Below are positions 14,054 to 30,147 of a DNA stretch of 41,638 bases, in pieces. This DNA comes from a virus. The stretch lies in IMG/VR virus record IMGVR_UViG_3300023181_000046, positions 1-41,638 of that record. One strand, 5' to 3'. How positions within the stretch are numbered: the first letter of the stretch is position 1; each line of letters begins with the position of its first letter. The notes below the pieces were generated by a model. That model was not told the origin of the DNA and did no database searches. It was given only the letters and a program-made list of their open reading frames with translations. The position numbers were made by a program, and so were the translations under genes.

Positions 14054-14274
14054 ATGCCCGCCTCATGCATGGCTTCGTCCGCGCTTTCACGAGCGGCGCG
14101 AATTAACACGTCAACAACGCCATCATCGCCCCGCTCAAAATCAGTAAGCGTTATAGGCACAGCAAGAACTTGCTCCTTATCGTTCCTAAATGGGCTTGTT
14201 GCGATATACCCCTCGGGGACCTCATGAATGTACCAGCCCGGAAACGCCACTTCGATCTTGTCCTGAATTTTCAT
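14050..14274 (-). CDS. Small hypothetical protein after large terminase
   Basis: 74 residues (MKIQDKIEVAFPGWYIHEVP start), coupled by ATGA to the terminase stop and to the next gene. It has a beta N-terminal half and a helical acidic C-terminus (DVLIRAARESADEAMHEAGI). No recognised domain; the tight coupling hints at a packaging-related role. Confidence 0.58.
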   Translation of the reverse strand: MKIQDKIEVAFPGWYIHEVPEGYIATSPFRNDKEQVLAVPITLTDFERGDDGVVDVLIRAARESADEAMHEAGI

Positions 14275-15851
14275 ATTCTCCGTCCACCCTTCTTCGTTCT
14301 CTTGCGCTCTTCGTATGTTGGCACCCTGGATTTGCCGTAGTTCTTCGGGTCTATAACCTCGGCTGGCGATGGCAATGGCTTTCCGGCCAGCATGCGATCA
14401 ATCAACTGACCAACCAACCCCAAGGCGTCTACCTGATCGTCATGGACGCCAACGGGGAAACTCATCATCTCACTAATCAGGTCTGAGATAAAGGGCGCAT
14501 CCTTGTGAATGTAGAGGCCACGCGTTGCAATCAGACCCCGGAATGACTGCGCACGAATGGCCTTGTCGCCTCTGGTGGGGAACTGCTCTCTTGCCACGTA
14601 AGCCCCACGGCTAAGCTGCGCTCGTGTGAGGAACGGGCCAACGCCAGATTTGATCTGCCCTGTTTCCTCAGCCCAGCCTATCGGGGACCATTTCAGCACA
14701 AGGTCACAGAACGCCTCAACCCACACATCCGAACTTGCCTGCGCCCGCCATAGATCGAGCAGCCACGGCTTACCCTCTGGATCGAGGCCAACAGCGGCGT
14801 GGACCGTATAATCACCACCGTCACTTGTCACGGCATAGTCAGAGCCGCCATAGACGCGCATAGACGCTCTATCGGGCAGGCTGTCGGCTAGGTGTATCCA
14901 TTCTCGTTTGAAATAGTCGCCGGTATCAGGTGATGGCCGCTGTTGAAACAAAGCCGACCATGTGCGCGGCAGTCTCTCGAACTTGGCCCAATGGCTTGCG
15001 GGAAACCACTCAGGCCAGATGTAATCGCCAATCTCACGGCCTAGAGGATCGTCAGAGCGCTCACACTTAGCCGCGAGACAGATAACCTCCCAATCTTCAC
15101 CGTCACGGCCATGAATAATCCCGCTCTCGCCTGCATAGTTCTCGGGCAGGATTGACCCGCTTAGATCGCCATTGTGCCAGCGGGTGTTGATGATGATCAG
15201 CGACCCTCCGGGCTTGAGGCGCGTTAGAACGCTTTCCTCATACTCGGCAATGGTTCTCTCTCGAATAACCTCACTGTCAGCATCCTGACGGCCCTTGAAC
15301 GGATCATCCACCACAACGCAATCAGCACGGTTGCCGGTGATGCCAGACAGGATGCCGCCTGACATGTATTCAGAGCCATTGCCCAACGCCCATTCATCAG
15401 CCGCCGCGCTCTCAGCAGACAAAGCCGTGCCGAACAGTGTGGTATATTTGGGCTGCTTGATGATCGAGCGGGTACGTCGCCCAAACTTGCGGGCCATGTC
15501 CGAACCGTAGGACACGCCAATCATGCGGTAGTTCGGTATCTTCCCCATGATCCACGAAGGCGCAACGACACTGCCATATGTGGACTTTGCGCTGCCAGGG
15601 GGCATTAGGAGCATGAGCCTGCCGTTGGGCTTCTCAATGCATCGCTGAATAGCGTCTAGGGCTAGGATGTGATGCTCGGCTAGTTCCGTCTCAACGTGAG
15701 CGTTAGCCGTGTCGGAGTTTTCGTCCTGCTCTACTAGAGGCGCACCAGGAACATCAATGTACCGTGCGTACTCAGTTAAGCTTCGACGGGCTCGGCGGCG
15801 TCTCAGTAGCTCCTGCGCTGCTTCCTGCTGCGATGGCTTCAAGTTCATCAT
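14271..15851 (-). CDS. terL: Terminase large subunit
   Basis: 526 residues. The ATPase domain shows a Walker A variant (MPPGSAKST, residues ~83-91) and Walker B (CVVVDDP, ~178-184), with a coupling segment IINTRWHNGDLSG (~228-240) typical of phage terminases. The C-terminal nuclease domain has GGSDYAVTSDGGDYT and VHDDQVDAL, which supply acidic metal ligands. The enzyme cuts concatemeric DNA and drives packaging through the portal. The start at 15851 overlaps the upstream putative small subunit by 80 bases, an unusually long overlap, but no later good start precedes Walker A. Confidence 0.93.
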   Translation of the reverse strand: MMNLKPSQQEAAQELLRRRRARRSLTEYARYIDVPGAPLVEQDENSDTANAHVETELAEHHILALDAIQRCIEKPNGRLMLLMPPGSAKSTYGSVVAPSWIMGKIPNYRMIGVSYGSDMARKFGRRTRSIIKQPKYTTLFGTALSAESAAADEWALGNGSEYMSGGILSGITGNRADCVVVDDPFKGRQDADSEVIRERTIAEYEESVLTRLKPGGSLIIINTRWHNGDLSGSILPENYAGESGIIHGRDGEDWEVICLAAKCERSDDPLGREIGDYIWPEWFPASHWAKFERLPRTWSALFQQRPSPDTGDYFKREWIHLADSLPDRASMRVYGGSDYAVTSDGGDYTVHAAVGLDPEGKPWLLDLWRAQASSDVWVEAFCDLVLKWSPIGWAEETGQIKSGVGPFLTRAQLSRGAYVAREQFPTRGDKAIRAQSFRGLIATRGLYIHKDAPFISDLISEMMSFPVGVHDDQVDALGLVGQLIDRMLAGKPLPSPAEVIDPKNYGKSRVPTYEERKRTKKGGRRI

Positions 15852-17025: not shown

Positions 17026-17437
17026 TCTGCTTATTCTCTTTGGCTTTGGCTCGACGGTCGCGCATGTACAGTTTCATGTAGTTGCGATACCATTCGGCGC
17101 GGTTGAATTTGGCTTTGGATGCCGGTGCTGGGGTCGAACCAGCGTTAACGCCGTAAAGGGGCGCAGTCCTGCCATTAGCCGAACCGGCAGTAGTATCGAC
17201 GGGCAGGGTTTGAGTACCTGCTGTGGCGGCGGGGGTCGAACCCGCAACTCTCGCTTTGGACGAAGCACTTCCATTTATGCTATCGCCAACTACGCTAGGT
17301 TCACGATGGCCCAAGGCCAATGAGCTTCCCGTTCCGCTAGTTTCGCGCACGTCCTTCCGTGCTGCCGTCGATTTCTTGGGCTCCCTGCAAGGGTCAGTTC
17401 GGTAATGCAGGTAGCCGCATTCTTCACAAAGGTTCAT
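17018..17437 (-). CDS. Reading frame spanning a tRNA and a tRNA-like element; protein-like at both ends
   Basis: 139 codons. The N-terminus (MNLCEECGYLHYRTDPC) has zinc-ribbon-like Cys/His spacing, and the C-terminus (FNRAEWYRNYMKLYMRDRRA) is a basic helix of a type common in small phage proteins; the stop is coupled to the next gene. The middle ~75 residues include VAGSTPAAT and NAGSTPAPAS, which are what the T-arms of the two RNA elements read as when translated. Either this is a real protein with tRNA insertions, or two gene remnants joined by non-coding RNA. Translation of the whole frame is uncertain. Confidence 0.4.
   Translation of the reverse strand: MNLCEECGYLHYRTDPCREPKKSTAARKDVRETSGTGSSLALGHREPSVVGDSINGSASSKARVAGSTPAATAGTQTLPVDTTAGSANGRTAPLYGVNAGSTPAPASKAKFNRAEWYRNYMKLYMRDRRAKAKENKQNG
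17116..17189 (-). tRNA. tRNA with encoded CCA, anticodon apparently TTT (Lys), unusual C33
   Basis: The minus strand folds as a 74-base cloverleaf. The acceptor stem TGCCGGT/ACCGGCA is perfect (7 bp), followed by T and CCA. The D-arm is GGCT...GGAC with one mismatch and normal A14, GG and A21. The anticodon stem is GCGCC/GGCGT with loop CCTTTAC, the variable loop is TAAC, and the T-arm is GCTGG-TTCGACC-CCAGC (5 bp). By position the anticodon is TTT. The base before it is C instead of the near-universal U33, so decoding ability is doubtful; it may have another function. Confidence 0.7.
17222..17290 (-). tRNA. Degenerate tRNA-like element
   Basis: Minus strand. The T-arm GCGGG-TTCGACC-CCCGC is perfect, and the D-arm GCAT-AAATGGAA-GTGC is good with GG in the loop. 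The acceptor (GTTGGCG/CGCCACA) pairs in only 5 of 7 positions; the anticodon arm (TTCG-TCCAAAG-CGAG) has only 4 bp and again a C before the anticodon position. No CCA is encoded. It looks like a decayed or specialised tRNA, 32 bases upstream (in transcription) of the better tRNA. Confidence 0.35.
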
Positions 17438-21706: not shown

Positions 21707-22159
21707 TCAGTCCCCGCCACCCCCACCCCCGCCACCATCGCTGCTGCTGCCACTGTCCGACGAAGAGTAGGACGAACTATCGGATGATGACGAACTGCTG
21801 CTGTCGTAGCTAGATGAACCACCAAATCCACCTCCATTGGAGAAGGTATTATCTTCGCCACCAAAGCCGCCACCCGTTTTAAATCCGGTATGATCGCGAG
21901 TTCCATAGTCGTCGGATTGGTAGCGATCCGGTTCTGCCGAACTAGTCGGATTGCTTACTGCTGGGCTAGTCTGCGATGGGTAGTTAACTGGCTGACCGTA
22001 AAGAGCGTAGTAGAGCGCAGCATTCCCCAACCCGCTATCCCGCTGAGGATTGTAGCTCCCGCTTGTCATGGGCCACCGATTAGCCGCCGCTGCCCGTCGC
22101 TGTGCATCCTCACGTTCTTTGCGTTCACGCTTAGCTTTGTTCCAGGGCCATTCAAACAT
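21707..22159 (-). CDS. Low-complexity Gly/Ser-rich protein
   Basis: 150 residues from ATG 22159 (SD GGAG). A basic N-terminus (MFEWPWNKAKRERKEREDAQ) is followed by Tyr/Pro/Ser sequence and a tail made almost only of Ser, Asp and Gly, ending in a run of Gly and Asp. It has no membrane helix. First gene of the leftward replication block; tail composition suggests a disordered region, and function is unknown. Confidence 0.55.
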   Translation of the reverse strand: MFEWPWNKAKRERKEREDAQRRAAAANRWPMTSGSYNPQRDSGLGNAALYYALYGQPVNYPSQTSPAVSNPTSSAEPDRYQSDDYGTRDHTGFKTGGGFGGEDNTFSNGGGFGGSSSYDSSSSSSSDSSSYSSSDSGSSSDGGGGGGGGD

Positions 22160-22232
22160 TCGCATTCTCCAATTGGCACGGCGATTGCTACACGCGCTCG
22201 CCCGGTTTCTATGCACTAGACGTAGTAGTCCC

Positions 22233-22273
22233 TTGCGTCCTCCTGATACCGAAATTTCGGTACCAAAACGCAA
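22233..22273. promoter_or_regulatory. Nested dyad, candidate operator
   Basis: A perfect 16-bp palindrome, TACCGAAATTTCGGTA (22247-22262), is flanked by a second inverted pair, TTGCGT (22233-22238) and ACGCAA (22268-22273). It lies ~75 bases upstream of the first replication-block gene. The outer repeat on the minus strand could serve as a -35 (TTGCGT) with the palindrome in the spacer, the usual place for a repressor. Confidence 0.55.
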
Positions 22274-22522
22274 TAGGAGCATCCTGTCTCAACACCGTAT
22301 ACCTGCGCCTGTCCGTAAGGTGGACCAAGCCTAAAGCGTCATAAGGGGCGCAGATGCGATCATAGCCGGATGAGCATTTGATCGGGCCAAGGGCCAATGG
22401 GCGAACCCAAAGTGAAAAAACCCCGGTGTTATCTGCTATAGGGGATGCAGAAAGGTCCCTTTAGTCCCAAGCCGATTAAGTGCGCACGTGAGTGCAGGTT
22501 CACCGCTTCGCAGCTTAGTGAC

Positions 22523-22597
22523 CTCGGTAGGAACATCTATTACAGGGGGTATGCTCTTGAACTAAACCACTAGCTGTGGCATTTAGAGCGTACCGAG
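22523..22597. other. Three stacked stems (candidate structured RNA)
   Basis: CTCGGTA/TACCGAG (22523-22529, 22591-22597) encloses GCTCT/AGAGC (22553-22557, 22585-22589), which encloses CCAC/GTGG (22567-22570, 22576-22579). A neighbouring stem uses ACCGAGTG with CACTTCGGT. No coding frame explains it; strand unknown. Confidence 0.4.
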
Positions 22598-22682
22598 TGT
22601 TTTAGAGCCACTTCGGTCATGTTGGTGGGGATTGGTCTCCCGCATCAACGTTTATCATAGTGAGGGAAACCCTCAGATTAGT

Positions 22683-22720
22683 CAATAGGCCCTTGCGATC
22701 AAGTTCGTGGGGGCCTATTG
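22683..22720 (+). terminator. Long perfect hairpin before the tRNA-like element
   Basis: CAATAGGCCC (22683-22692) and GGGCCTATTG (22711-22720) form a perfect 10-bp stem with an 18-base loop, followed by TGTTTATG. The U-tract is weak, so it may be a structural 5' part of the adjacent RNA element rather than a terminator. The same arrangement recurs at 29671-29710. Confidence 0.45.
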
Positions 22721-22721
22721 T

Positions 22722-22813
22722 GTTTATGCCGGTGTCCTGGAGGATGCACCCCGATCAGGGTGGGGCGGTTCGATCCCGCATGGTACAGATTGGTTCGATA
22801 CCGATCCCCGGCT
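22722..22813 (+). ncRNA. tRNA-like RNA element, copy A (possible antisense/immunity RNA)
   Basis: GCCGG (22728-22732) pairs with CCGGC (22808-22812) and closes four arms: GTGTC-CTGGAG-GATGC, CACCC-CGATCA-GGGTG, GCGG-TTCGATC-CCGC and ATTGG-TTCGATA-CCGAT, the last a perfect T-arm look-alike. The overall size (86 bases) is tRNA-like, but the D and anticodon arms do not fit a real tRNA. A diverged copy lies at 29707. The general look recalls the C4/P4-CI antisense immunity RNAs of phages; that is from memory and unproven. Confidence 0.4.
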
Positions 22814-22906
22814 TAACCACCAAACCCCTCCCATGCGCTTCCCCAAGCCCCTTCATCCCCAGCAAATCTTTTCCTACCAGTTGCATAAAGGTGATGGGGG
22901 GAGACG

Positions 22907-24210: not shown

Positions 24211-24474
24211 TCAATACTCCGAAGACGCTTCGACCATGCCCAGCGCCGCCATATAAAGCTCTAGTACGGCTTCCTGCTCGGCGCGTTCATTGGCATCCAT
24301 AGCCCTGATCTTTACGATCTTGCGCAGGATGGCCGTATCAAAACCGTTCCCCTTGGCCTCGGCGTAGATTTCCTTGATATCCTCGGCTACCGCTGTCTTC
24401 TCTTCCTCCATGCGTTCGATGCGGTCAATAAACGCACGGAGCTGGTCCTGTGCTACGCTATCTTCAACGGCCAT
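24211..24474 (-). CDS. GapR-family (DUF2312) nucleoid-associated protein
   Basis: 87 residues from ATG 24474 (SD AAGGAG). The whole protein is the DUF2312/GapR domain: DQLRAFIDRIERMEEEKTAV, EDIKEIYAEAKGNGFD and LRKIVKIRAMDANERAEQEA. Host GapR of alphaproteobacteria forms tetramers that clamp overtwisted DNA ahead of forks and RNA polymerase and help topoisomerases. A phage copy could ease its own replication or compete with the host protein. It strongly indicates an alphaproteobacterial host. Confidence 0.88.
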   Translation of the reverse strand: MAVEDSVAQDQLRAFIDRIERMEEEKTAVAEDIKEIYAEAKGNGFDTAILRKIVKIRAMDANERAEQEAVLELYMAALGMVEASSEY

Positions 24475-24853
24475 TGGTATTCTCCTTGGTTGGGTTTTCA
24501 AAATGATCGGCAAGAGCGCGGAATGTGTCTGCTGCTGCCCGCAGTTCGTCTGGGCTTTTGCTAGTCACCACCCGGATATCCCCATTATCTGAGATGAACA
24601 CGATCCCATAAACACCCGGTTTAACGCGGGTTACGGTTTCAGTTACGATAGGGCTTGGGATGGAAGGGGTGACGAGTTCGAGTTCGCTTTCCCGGAAAGC
24701 CCATGGCGAATTATTTTTGCCGCTCCATGATTGCTCCCCGCCATTAAATTTCTCGTCTTCTGTAATCGTAAATTCCATCCCCACGCAGCTTTGAGGTTTT
24801 GACCCGGCGATGCGCACTACCCTTACTCGGTCGCCAATCTTGAAACGGCTCAT
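24464..24853 (-). CDS. Hypothetical protein with KOW/SH3-like N-terminus
   Basis: 129 residues. The N-terminus (MSRFKIGDRVRVVRIAGSKP on to GMEFTITEDEKF) looks like an SH3-like barrel; the second part (GVYGIVFISDNGDIRVVTSK) is beta and the C-terminus helical (DELRAAADTFRALADHF). It overlaps the GapR gene by 11 bases. Function unknown. Confidence 0.58.
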   Translation of the reverse strand: MSRFKIGDRVRVVRIAGSKPQSCVGMEFTITEDEKFNGGEQSWSGKNNSPWAFRESELELVTPSIPSPIVTETVTRVKPGVYGIVFISDNGDIRVVTSKSPDELRAAADTFRALADHFENPTKENTNGR

Positions 24854-26854: not shown

Positions 26855-27028
26855 ATGAAGATAAAAGACGAAAGCCTTATCCGTATTCACCTATTCGCCA
26901 GAACGCTGAGCGAGGCAGCGTTGGTTTGCGGATACACTAGCCCAAACGACAATACCTATGATGATCGAATGAAGCGTGTTGAGGAGGAGGTTGATACCTT
27001 GCTCAAGGCGCTGGGGGTGAAGCCATGA
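26855..27028 (+). CDS. Small hypothetical protein (57 aa)
   Basis: ATG 26855, SD AGAGG inside a hairpin, stop coupled to the next gene (ATGA). Sequence starts MKIKDESLIRIHLFARTLSE and ends VEEEVDTLLKALGVKP; helical. First gene of the second early sub-operon. Confidence 0.62.
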   Translation: MKIKDESLIRIHLFARTLSEAALVCGYTSPNDNTYDDRMKRVEEEVDTLLKALGVKP

Positions 27029-27345
27029 GCGAAAATATCTGGCTAGGCCGCATAACCAAGGCTGAGTTTGGCTTTGGAGGCTACCAAGAAGCGATGTTCG
27101 GACTATCCGTTACGCTTGAAGGCAAGGGCTCCGGCGTCGGAGACTTTAAGGGCGCTTGGGCTATCGAGCGATCCGAACGGGCAAAATGGACCGAGGAGGA
27201 TCGGCAGCAGCAGATTTTCGAGGCTGTGTGGATGGTAAAGGAAATCCTGGAGAAAGCCAAGAAGCAGCACGTTTCCCAGCTTAAGGGCATACCCGTCGAA
27301 GTGACTTGTGAAGGCAATATGCTGAAGTCGTGGCGCGTTCTGTAG
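27025..27345 (+). CDS. Hypothetical beta-type protein of a common phage family
   Basis: 106 residues. The layout 'x-F-G-x-G-G-Y-Q-E-A-M-F-G-L-S-V-T-L-E-G-K-G-S-G' then a helix (IFEAVWMVKEILEKAKKQHV) and LKGIPVEVTCEGNMLKSWRV matches a widespread phage family of unknown function found next to ERF recombinases. A TTTGGCTTTGG copy lies at 27067-27077. Confidence 0.65.
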   Translation: MSENIWLGRITKAEFGFGGYQEAMFGLSVTLEGKGSGVGDFKGAWAIERSERAKWTEEDRQQQIFEAVWMVKEILEKAKKQHVSQLKGIPVEVTCEGNMLKSWRVL

Positions 27346-27353
27346 GAGGTTCT

Positions 27354-27860
27354 GTGACCTACATACACCTTGATGCTCAGTACGTGGCTCAGCAGATTGA
27401 GCGCCTCATGGAAACATATGCGGACGTTCTAGAGGATGACGACGCCCTACGACACGATATGATTTCCGGCAGCACCGAGATTGATCAAGTGGTTTCTCGC
27501 GCCCTTGATCATATGGCGGAAGCGGAAATGGTCATTGCCGGGATCAAGGATCGGGCCAGCCATCTAAAGGCTCGGGAGGCGAGGTTTCAGCGGCGATCGG
27601 ATGCCATGCGTTCGCTGATCCTGCAACTGATGACAAAGGCCAACATTCGCAGCCTCCCATTGCCGGAAGCGACCATCACACGGTCAGAGGGAAAGTTCTT
27701 TGTCGTCATCAATGATGAAAGCTCACTGCCAAGGCAGCTAGGCACATCAACATGGGCTCCTGATAAGCGGGCTATCTCGCGGCAAATATCAGCGGGTGAA
27801 ACTGTTCCTGGAGCCAGTCTTGAGAAGGGCGACGACACACTGAGGATTAGCAAGAAATGA
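27354..27860 (+). CDS. Siphovirus Gp157-like protein
   Basis: 168 residues from GTG 27354 (SD AGGAGGT four bases upstream). It shows the Gp157 pattern: an N-terminal helical pair with L-E-D-D-D-A-L, then KDRASHLKAREARFQRRSDA and MRSLILQLMTKANIRSLPLP, a beta end (ATITRSEGKFFVVINDESSL) and PDKRAISRQISAGETVPGAS. Gp157 proteins accompany ERF or RecT recombinases in many phages and were linked to phage resistance in Streptococcus; the biochemical role is unclear. ATGA-coupled to ERF. Confidence 0.85.
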   Translation: MTYIHLDAQYVAQQIERLMETYADVLEDDDALRHDMISGSTEIDQVVSRALDHMAEAEMVIAGIKDRASHLKAREARFQRRSDAMRSLILQLMTKANIRSLPLPEATITRSEGKFFVVINDESSLPRQLGTSTWAPDKRAISRQISAGETVPGASLEKGDDTLRISKK

Positions 27861-28510
27861 TCACACACAGCGACAGCATTAAAACCATTTCCAAAGCCCT
27901 GCTTACCTTTCAGGGTGCAGTAGATGGCGTTGAGAAGAACAGGAGTAACCCCGGCTTCAAGTCCCGCTATGCCAACCTTGAGGCCGTGCGTGATACCGCA
28001 GTGCCAGAGCTTCAGAAGGTCGGGCTTGTCTATGCTCAGTCTCCCGGCAAGATCGTGGATGGGGTTATGTCCATGACCACCATGATCATCCATGCCGAAA
28101 GCGGCGAGTGGATGAAATTCGAGGGCGACATTACTTTGGGAAAGCGTGATCCGCAGGGCACCGGCTCTGCGATGACGTATATGCAGCGGTATAGCCTTAT
28201 GGCTGCATTGGGTCTGCCGCCTGTTGATGATGATGGAGAGGCCGCTACAGACCGCTCTAGGCCGCAGCAGGCACAGCGTAGGCCGGAAACGCAGCAGACC
28301 GCCCCTGCGCCTTCCCAGGCCACGTCTCGCGACTATTTAGCAGAACTGGCCGAAGCCACTACCGAGAGCATCCAAGACCTCTTTGCGGAGGCTTGGCGAT
28401 CCACGGGAGACAGTCAAAAGAAGGACAAGCTTAAAGCTGCTTATGAGAGGCGTAAACGGGAATTGACACAGCCGTCTAAAGCCCCCGATTTCGAGAACTT
28501 GCAGCCGTGA
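27857..28510 (+). CDS. erf: ERF-family single-strand annealing protein
   Basis: 217 residues. The N-terminal ~130 residues carry the ERF signature: NPGFKSRYANLEAVRDTAVP, EWMKFEGDITLGKRDPQGTG and SAMTYMQRYSLMAALGLPP. A Pro/Gln/Arg linker (~140-160) and a helical C-terminal domain follow, as in P22 Erf. It anneals complementary strands and, in P22, circularises the incoming genome and promotes recombination-dependent replication, in line with a circularly permuted genome packaged from concatemers. Confidence 0.9.
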   Translation: MITHSDSIKTISKALLTFQGAVDGVEKNRSNPGFKSRYANLEAVRDTAVPELQKVGLVYAQSPGKIVDGVMSMTTMIIHAESGEWMKFEGDITLGKRDPQGTGSAMTYMQRYSLMAALGLPPVDDDGEAATDRSRPQQAQRRPETQQTAPAPSQATSRDYLAELAEATTESIQDLFAEAWRSTGDSQKKDKLKAAYERRKRELTQPSKAPDFENLQP

Positions 28511-28923
28511 CCTCGTTCATCCTACGCAATCCTCAGATACGGCAGAACGCTATGCGGGCTGTGTCTGAGGCCCCTGATAATTGGATTGTGACCGTGGCCG
28601 AGCGGAAGCGTTCAAGCCTAGCCAACGCGAAAATGTGGGCGATGTTGAGTGACGTTGCCCGCGCTAAGCCGGAAGGGCGGAACTGGACGCCTGAGACGTT
28701 CAAGGCAGCTTTCATGCACCACCTGGGTCATCAGGTTATGTTTGCGGAGGGGCTGGAAAATTCAGGACCGTTCCCTCTTGGCTTCCGAAGCTCTAACCTC
28801 AACGTTAAGCAAATGTCGGATTTGATTGAGTGCATCTATGCCTACGGTTCACAGCATGGGGTAGTGTGGACTGAAAGCGATAAGGGCGGTTTTATGGATT
28901 TGAAAGAGAGGGCTGGGGAATGA
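28507..28923 (+). CDS. ninB: NinB/Orf-like recombination protein
   Basis: 138 residues from GTG 28507 (GTGA overlap). The NinB pattern is visible: residues ~30-45 KRSSLANAKMWAMLSDVARA (the R-S-x-x-Q/A-N-x-x-x-W-x-x-L-x-D-V motif), then WTPETFKAAFMHHLG and the ending MSDLIECIYAYGSQHGVVW. Lambda Orf/NinB binds single-stranded DNA and helps replace RecFOR. It follows Gp157 and ERF, forming a recombination cassette. Confidence 0.85.
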   Translation: MTSFILRNPQIRQNAMRAVSEAPDNWIVTVAERKRSSLANAKMWAMLSDVARAKPEGRNWTPETFKAAFMHHLGHQVMFAEGLENSGPFPLGFRSSNLNVKQMSDLIECIYAYGSQHGVVWTESDKGGFMDLKERAGE

Positions 28924-29249
28924 GGGTACTTACGGTTTCTGACCTAAAAGAAAATGACAAGCGAGGCCTCAAAAACAAGAACGATTACCCACGGGAAAAC
29001 AGTTTTGCGTGGGAGGTTTTGCAGCAGCTAAAGCGCCATGAGGGACATTCCGTTGATCTAAGGCTATTAGCTCACTCGCGGCCCATTGTGAGTTTTTATG
29101 CAGCAATAAGTCAACTGACTGATATGTACGGCATGGATATTCGGCGGTTAAAGAAGCGCAGCTTCGAGTACGTTCTGGCTGGGGAGTGGTTTGGCTCGCA
29201 CTACTCGGATTATTGCGCGCGTGAGTTTCATGCCGGGTCGTCCAAATGA
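28920..29249 (+). CDS. Hypothetical protein, possible winged-helix
   Basis: 109 residues (MRVLTVSDLKENDKRGLKNK start). The middle FAWEVLQQLKRHEGHSVDLR then IVSFYAAISQLTDMYGMDIR looks like a winged-helix arrangement. It is ATGA-coupled to both the NinB-like and the DUF1364 gene, suggesting a DNA-related role. No named family recognised. Confidence 0.6.
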   Translation: MRVLTVSDLKENDKRGLKNKNDYPRENSFAWEVLQQLKRHEGHSVDLRLLAHSRPIVSFYAAISQLTDMYGMDIRRLKKRSFEYVLAGEWFGSHYSDYCAREFHAGSSK

Positions 29250-29653
29250 TCCGCTCCAAGAAGGTCACGCGGTCCGCCCGCGGCCAACCCTGTTTCCTAA
29301 GCCTCCCAGGTATCTGTAACCACAATCCCGAAACAACCGTATGGGCGCATCTTAACGGCTCGGCGTTCGGCAAGGGAGGCGGAATAAAGGCCCATGACAT
29401 TGCGGGCTTTCCAGCGTGTTCCGACTGTCATTTCGCATACGACCAGCACAAGACGGGTTTGACCGATGCTGAGCTTGCGGAGACGCTTCTACGGGCCGTT
29501 GTGAATAGCTGGGTTATGCTGATCGAGCGAGGCATTGTCATTGTTCCCCTCGATCCTGTAACGAACCTCATGGATAAGCCGATCAAGGCGAGGAAGCCGG
29601 TATCGCAGAGGACTAAAATAAAGTCGAGAGGCTTCCAGCGTAAGGTTGGTTAG
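29246..29653 (+). CDS. DUF1364 family protein (HNH-like, zinc-binding)
   Basis: 135 residues. The N-terminal part has the DUF1364 pattern: RSARGQPCFLSLPGICNHNP, then ETTVWAHLNGSAFGKG with the AHL motif, then PACSDCHFAYDQHK. C16, C24, H35, C58, C61 and H62 could form a zinc site with a His-Me-finger-like core. Lambdoid phages carry this family in the nin-like region, where a structure-specific nuclease role is suspected. The basic C-terminus would favour DNA binding. Confidence 0.85.
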   Translation: MIRSKKVTRSARGQPCFLSLPGICNHNPETTVWAHLNGSAFGKGGGIKAHDIAGFPACSDCHFAYDQHKTGLTDAELAETLLRAVVNSWVMLIERGIVIVPLDPVTNLMDKPIKARKPVSQRTKIKSRGFQRKVG

Positions 29654-29670: not shown

Positions 29671-29710
29671 AGGGGGCGGGCGAGATTTCCTCCTCCACGC
29701 CCCCTTGTTT
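29671..29710 (+). terminator. GC-rich hairpin ending the recombination operon
   Basis: AGGGGGCG (29671-29678) and CGCCCCCT (29698-29705) form a perfect 8-bp stem around 19 bases, followed by TGTTT. It lies 17 bases after the DUF1364 stop. As in copy A, the hairpin directly precedes GTTTATGCCG. Confidence 0.6.
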
Positions 29711-29772
29711 ATGCCGATGCTTTGGAGTATCTTGGCTGGGTCGCTCGGCGGTTCTCAAGGCCCCGAACGGTG
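29707..29772 (+). ncRNA. tRNA-like RNA element, copy B
   Basis: Shares GTTTATGCCG(A/G)TG with copy A at 22722, the same first hairpin (here GATGC-TTTGGA-GTATC), and GGCGGTTC further on. It is more diverged than copy A and lacks the perfect T-arm look-alike. It is transcribed with the early operon if read-through of the hairpin occurs. Function unknown; a repeat pair of control RNAs is the best guess. Confidence 0.35.
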
Positions 29773-30147
29773 ACTGACGGATACGACCCGGTCAGTAAAG
29801 GCATAATAGCTAACCCTAGCGTTTAGTTCAAGCCCTTACCCCAAATCGTTATCCTGACAGTCTCGACGCATAGTTCGCGGAGACCGGCGGGGCTATGTGT
29901 TTAAAGGCTAACCGTGGGCCTGCATAGACAAACCCCGACCCGAAAGCACGGAGGGGGCAGGGATCGCCAGACACGGCGGTTTAAGTAGCGTGCAACTGTA
30001 TGGCAGTGATATTGACCATACGGGCTCTAAGCGACGGACGGCTCCAGCGGTCAAGATCGACTAGAGGCAGGGACTAAGGCTCTCGTCATTCAATTGGCTG
30101 GGCCTTGGTCCCCCTTTGGCTCAACGCTCTGGAACTCTCCAACGGTC

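Follow-up and report, generated by a model that had tools for sequence, protein, structure and literature searches.

Two related hairpin-led elements flanking the early region of a podovirus-type phage and their possible role as RNA

Genomic context

The window, meaning the whole stretch of DNA that was analysed, is a 41.6-kb virus record whose late genes are of the podovirus type (portal, terminase, amidase, and endolysins). Its early genes form two divergent groups. An early cluster that includes a RusA-like resolvase runs leftward from 24853 to 22907, and an early operon encoding Mu Gam-like, Erf, and NinB proteins and an HNH nuclease runs rightward from 27025 to 29653. The nearest phage found, hereafter the sister phage, is IMGVR_UViG_3300023106_000013. 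Its terminase (L002/L003) is 99% identical at the protein level to that of the window (14271-15851), most other genes being far more diverged and much of the remaining sequence either about 70-80% identical at the DNA level or not alignable. Such identity amid diverged genes suggests a recent exchange, as judged from these sequences. On the sister-phage contig there are two terminase copies, which differ slightly and are separated by about 43 kb. Genome-borne relatives of the terminase are found mostly in alphaproteobacteria.

The locus studied here lies beyond the left end of the early cluster, in a gap that an earlier, sequence-only reading had described as a gene-free region of about 750 bases. 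This description holds: if the gene on the left begins where it most probably does, none of the frames of the gap (gap A, about 22164-22906) shows a clear sign of coding. Short frames covering the element in this gap (copy A) and its counterpart beyond the right end of the early operon (copy B) look alike (VYAGVLED and VYADALEY), and were rejected as genes on account of negative codon scores and a lack of relatives. A sigma-70 scan found no promoter-like site in gap A. Table 1 lists the features of both copies.

Table 1. Features of copies A and B and of the adjoining hairpin row
Feature	Position	Strand	Sequence or structure	Remark
Hairpin row left of P0(A)	22545-22682			Possible separate structured RNA or leader; fold z-scores
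P0(A)	22683-22720	+	CAATAGGCCC...GGGCCTATTG, U-rich tail TGTTTAT	Hairpin of intrinsic-terminator type; terminator scan, sister-phage conservation
Box of copy A, 25 nt	22721-22745	+	TGTTTATGCCGGTGTCCTGGAGGAT	20/25 identical to box of copy B
Domain A, 93 nt	22724-22816	+	P1 TTATGCCGG (22724-22732) / CCGGCTTAA (22808-22816)	P1 8/9 paired
P2(A)	22732-22747	+	GUGUCC-UGGA-GGAUGC	6 bp, 4-nt loop
P0(B)	about 29671-29705	+	GGGGGCG...CGCCCCC	GC-rich hairpin about 20 nt past stop of HNH gene 29246-29653
Box of copy B, 25 nt	29706-29730	+	TGTTTATGCCGATGCTTTGGAGTAT	Repeat of box 22721-22745
Domain B, 98 nt	29709-29806	+	P1 TTATGCC (29709-29715) / GGCATAA (29800-29806)	P1 perfect
P2(B)	29716-29731	+	6-bp arm	4-nt loop

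The hairpin preceding copy A

The perfect 10-bp hairpin that had been reported to precede copy A is present as described, just left of the interval first proposed for a tRNA-like element (22722-22813), and it reaches 16 pairs when G-U pairs are counted. With a GC-rich stem followed on the + strand by the U-rich tract TGTTTATGCC, P0(A) looks like an intrinsic terminator. The syntenic gap of the sister phage (L002) contains a corresponding hairpin, TAGTCAAGAGGCCCGC...TTCGTGGCGGGCCTCATTG, in which about three quarters of 45 alignment columns are identical to P0(A) and one compensatory change has replaced a T-A by a G-C pair in both arms. Only the hairpin aligns between the two gaps; the remainder does not, and the domain that follows P0(A) is absent from the sister phage. 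A matching three-way junction after the sister-phage hairpin was looked for and was unsupported (z 0.38). The same sister-phage gap ends, on its - strand, in a strong stem with a terminator-like hairpin that reads against the neighbouring genes (L002:1165-1300, z -4.28). More widely, 8 other phage contigs have terminator-like hairpins with the shape of P0(A), AGTCAAnAGGCCC..GGGCCTnTTG.

Domain A and its fold

Downstream of P0(A), the closure by GCCGG and CCGGC noted earlier was found again at 22728-22732 and 22808-22812. The 86-base fold that it closes had been described as strong, and this part of the description failed: the fold has a z-score of -0.36 on the + strand, where 76 of 200 shuffled sequences fold as well, and of -0.10 on the - strand. 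The slightly longer domain A encloses both of the T-arm look-alikes discussed below. Its small arm P2(A) competes with the last pair of P1 and is partly present in the centroid fold of the 86-base stretch.

Copy B and its relationship to copy A

The label of copy A implied a second copy, and one related to it well beyond chance does exist at 29706-29806. Both copies lie on the + strand, each after a hairpin of terminator type, and together they flank the early region (22.9-29.65 kb), with one copy at the distal end of each of the divergent early operons. Copy B runs along with its own operon, and copy A opposes the operon in which it lies. A closing stem of the form TTATGCC/GGC(A/T)TAA is common to the two copies and spans 93 and 98 nt. 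The chance of such a P1 partner is 0.022 for A and 0.004 for B, both values, like the other chance estimates given here, having been computed after the pattern was seen. Directly inside P1, each copy has a 6-bp arm with a 4-nt loop (P2; chance 0.014 for A and 0.03 for B); these values are not independent of the box that both copies contain. Domain B, which also has a long P3, folds better than its shuffles (z -2.14).

Judged by their sequences, A and B are very probably related copies. Among the 120 pairs formed by the 16 window hairpins with at least 8 perfect pairs (both strands), the sequence downstream of the hairpins of A and B is identical at 20 of 26 positions, and the next best pair reaches 14. 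An end-to-end alignment of A and B gives a z-score of 5.9 against dinucleotide shuffles, and p 0.014 remains when the box is left out. The interior arms match poorly, and P2 is shifted by one base in the ungapped alignment.

These observations bear on a simpler explanation, in which P0 is an ordinary terminator, the fold of A results from accidental GC-rich pairing, and the likeness of B is owed mostly to a U-rich tail and luck. The chance-level fold of domain A agrees with it, as does the recurrence of the hairpin shape in other phages. It also gains from the fact that the 25-nt box match taken alone is not rare, direct repeats of similar length and identity being common in the window, and from a gap-against-gap local alignment that reaches p 0.04 only and scores higher in the opposite orientation. 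What this explanation accounts for poorly is an anchored A-B identity far outside that of all other pairs, the z-score of the whole element, and the closing-stem partners that end both domains. We consider it unlikely.

The same comparison may be read at the level of DNA, with the box serving as a protein-binding site (for example an activated promoter of the following transcription unit) or as a direct repeat at a module boundary, and the RNA fold being incidental. Most of the identity does reside in the box (z 5.6), and the copies are direct repeats on either side of the early region. Copy B, moreover, has a terminated operon on one side and further + strand genes on the other, and hexamers TTGTTT and TATCTT, 17 nt apart, can be read in it by eye. 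However, the box is absent from the results of the sigma-70 scan, the hexamers of copy A are poor, and a promoter in A would transcribe against its neighbours; the paired GGC(A/T)TAA ends are also left unexplained. A DNA-level element is an improbable account, on about the same footing as the preceding one. Between a DNA site and a folded RNA, the latter is the likelier reading, even though the copies differ in their interiors. The earlier proposal of a dedicated RNA is plausible in so far as the 5' box, the closing stem, and the placement of the hairpin are all found again in a second copy.

tRNA-like features of copy A

The T-arm look-alike reported in copy A was confirmed and proved to be one of two. 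Loops of the type TTCRANN, as in a tRNA T-arm, occur at 22769 and 22794, 25 nt apart, and two such look-alikes within 60 nt are found in only 3% of shuffled windows. A decayed tRNA gene or a tRNA mimic (a short RNA of the mascRNA kind, or a handle for RNase P) could be suspected on this basis, all the more as A shares with tRNA and mascRNA-type RNA the TTCGA loops of these arms. The stretch 22764-22783 also resembles alphaproteobacterial tRNA-Ala T-arms, with matches of 19-20 nt, which is the behaviour expected of any T-arm look-alike, and the best Rfam alignment at E up to 10 is to mascRNA-menRNA (15.4 bits, E 0.61), a score at chance level. Against such an origin, no tRNA match to A was obtained from Rfam at the gathering score or at E up to 10, and ARAGORN at default settings called none, so that no high-scoring normal tRNA came from either program. 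Under relaxed settings ARAGORN draws a weak cloverleaf at 22737-22812 (anticodon CGA, still drawn at thresholds of up to 88% of the default), yet shuffled windows yield 0-3 such matches each. No credible cloverleaf is present, the scores being at chance level. Copy B has no T-arm of this kind. Membership of A among tRNAs was rejected on the Rfam and ARAGORN results, and a decayed or mimicked tRNA seems quite improbable. A second relaxed tRNA-like call, still made at 92%, lies at 17220-17299 on the - strand, directly upstream of a tRNA-Lys (17116-17189), and is possibly a decayed tRNA.

Comparison with antisense immunity RNAs

Kinship to the C4 and P4 CI immunity RNAs had also been suggested. 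C4 of P1/P7 (RF01695) is a small phage RNA with a stem-loop architecture (PMC5320573), and, like RNAs of this kind, A is a closed domain that has inner arms and sits in a non-coding gap of a phage. Differences soon appear, however. The C4 covariance model has no match at A at the gathering score or at E up to 10, and the 5' end of P1 in A lacks a GG RNase P start motif. No antisense target above chance was found within 1.5 kb on the + strand or among the phage mRNAs, the longest complementary runs (11 nt in the neighbourhood and 10 nt among the mRNAs) being within the range of shuffles. Furthermore, A is positioned after a terminator-like hairpin at an operon end and not inside an early leader. 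The suggested kinship was thus not borne out: membership in C4 was rejected on the Rfam results, and an immunity role of the C4/P4 type gained no support.

The lack of a recognised CI-type repressor had been cited in its favour. PHROGs indeed detects none, but the gene at 24211-24513 weakly matches phrog_639, a family of phage transcription regulators (E 5.5e-5). In any case, a missing CI repressor does not count as evidence that immunity is conferred by RNA, and nothing beyond shape favours an immunity role; an antisense RNA working like C4 or P4 CI is very improbable here.

Searches for further copies

No third copy was found by DNA comparison in phage records, and patterns for the box, the core, and the hairpin row had no match in IMG/VR. 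No further copies lay in the neighbourhoods of terminase, phrog_625, and HNH gene relatives, and the use of a DnaA-like gene as an anchor for relatives returned nothing. A covariance model built from the two sequences (A and B) likewise found no third copy among 56 sources, among 18 phage records, or in two partly overlapping runs over 101 and 385 alphaproteobacterial genomes. This absence carries little weight because the collections may omit records very near the window. A group II intron inserted after the terminator was considered as well and rejected, there being no Rfam match and no intron-like ends.

A possible cis-acting RNA at the ends of the early operons

The reading to which we tentatively give most weight, at somewhat less than even confidence and from sequence comparison, is that A and B are a two-copy, phage-specific, structured non-coding element that acts as RNA in cis at operon ends. 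Each copy would begin with a terminator-type P0 and continue, no more than about 3 nt later, with a domain of 93-98 nt that folds back through the shared P1, with the small 6-bp arm P2 sitting inside P1. P0 would stop rightward transcription, and the P1 domain might then shape the read-through or trailing RNA through end protection, processing, or polymerase release. Alternatively to such an action on RNA, the box may start the next transcript. A cis-acting RNA is favoured by the anchored identity and the z-score of the A-B alignment, by the P1 partners, by the stability of domain B, by the compensatory change in P0(A), and by the non-coding nature of the gaps. The chance-level fold of domain A, the mismatched interiors, the finding of only two copies with none in the sister phage or the other relatives searched, the lack of a promoter-like site in gap A, and the opposed orientation of A count against it. 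The shared box also consists in part of a U-rich tail, such as any terminator would have behind it. A simple 3'-UTR role is disfavoured for A because it opposes the adjoining operon. The more specific idea that A and B represent an undescribed phage RNA family (P0 plus a P1/P2 junction domain), with one member per early-operon end exerting an RNA-only control over how early transcription ends or is passed on, is doubtful.

Two known systems invite comparison with such a cis-acting RNA. Intrinsic bidirectional (Rho-independent) phage terminators share with A and B a GC-rich hairpin, mirrored A/T flanks, a U-rich tail, and a position at or near an operon end. By contrast, the hairpins of A and B are directly trailed by a related domain, and their tail is not a pure run of U. 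The put sites of HK022 are about 70 nt long, form two stem-loops, and lie just downstream of early promoters (PMC9378689). Like A and B on this reading, putL and putR are structured RNAs present as two related copies per lambdoid-type genome, one per early operon, a likeness of layout. Whereas put is sense and promoter-proximal, A and B lie at distal operon ends and A is antisense, and on the gene map neither of them is a sense element just downstream of early promoters. A put-like role is disfavoured because A opposes the adjoining operon, put lying just downstream of early promoters. If A and B are functional RNAs, they would mark the ends of both early operons in a poorly known alphaproteobacterial-type podophage group and add a control point of a new, RNA-based kind with a role like that of put. 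If they are not, they offer an example of an ordinary terminator beside GC-rich DNA that was mistaken for a tRNA-like RNA.

Other structured features of gap A

In a stability scan of the whole window, a peak at 22556-22750 is among the strongest. It results from P0(A) and the hairpins to its left, and not from the 86-base fold. The stretch 22545-22728 contains three or four hairpins in a row, the last of which is P0(A), and has a z-score of -5.64 on the + strand. Without P0(A), the row has z-scores of -2.47 on the + strand and -3.79 on the - strand, and is thus structured on the latter too. This row could represent a small RNA of its own, with its end at P0. Further left, at 22249-22268, a near-perfect palindrome around GGTACCGAAATTTCGGTATC (- strand) has an operator-like appearance and lies close to where the gene that ends at 21707 begins.
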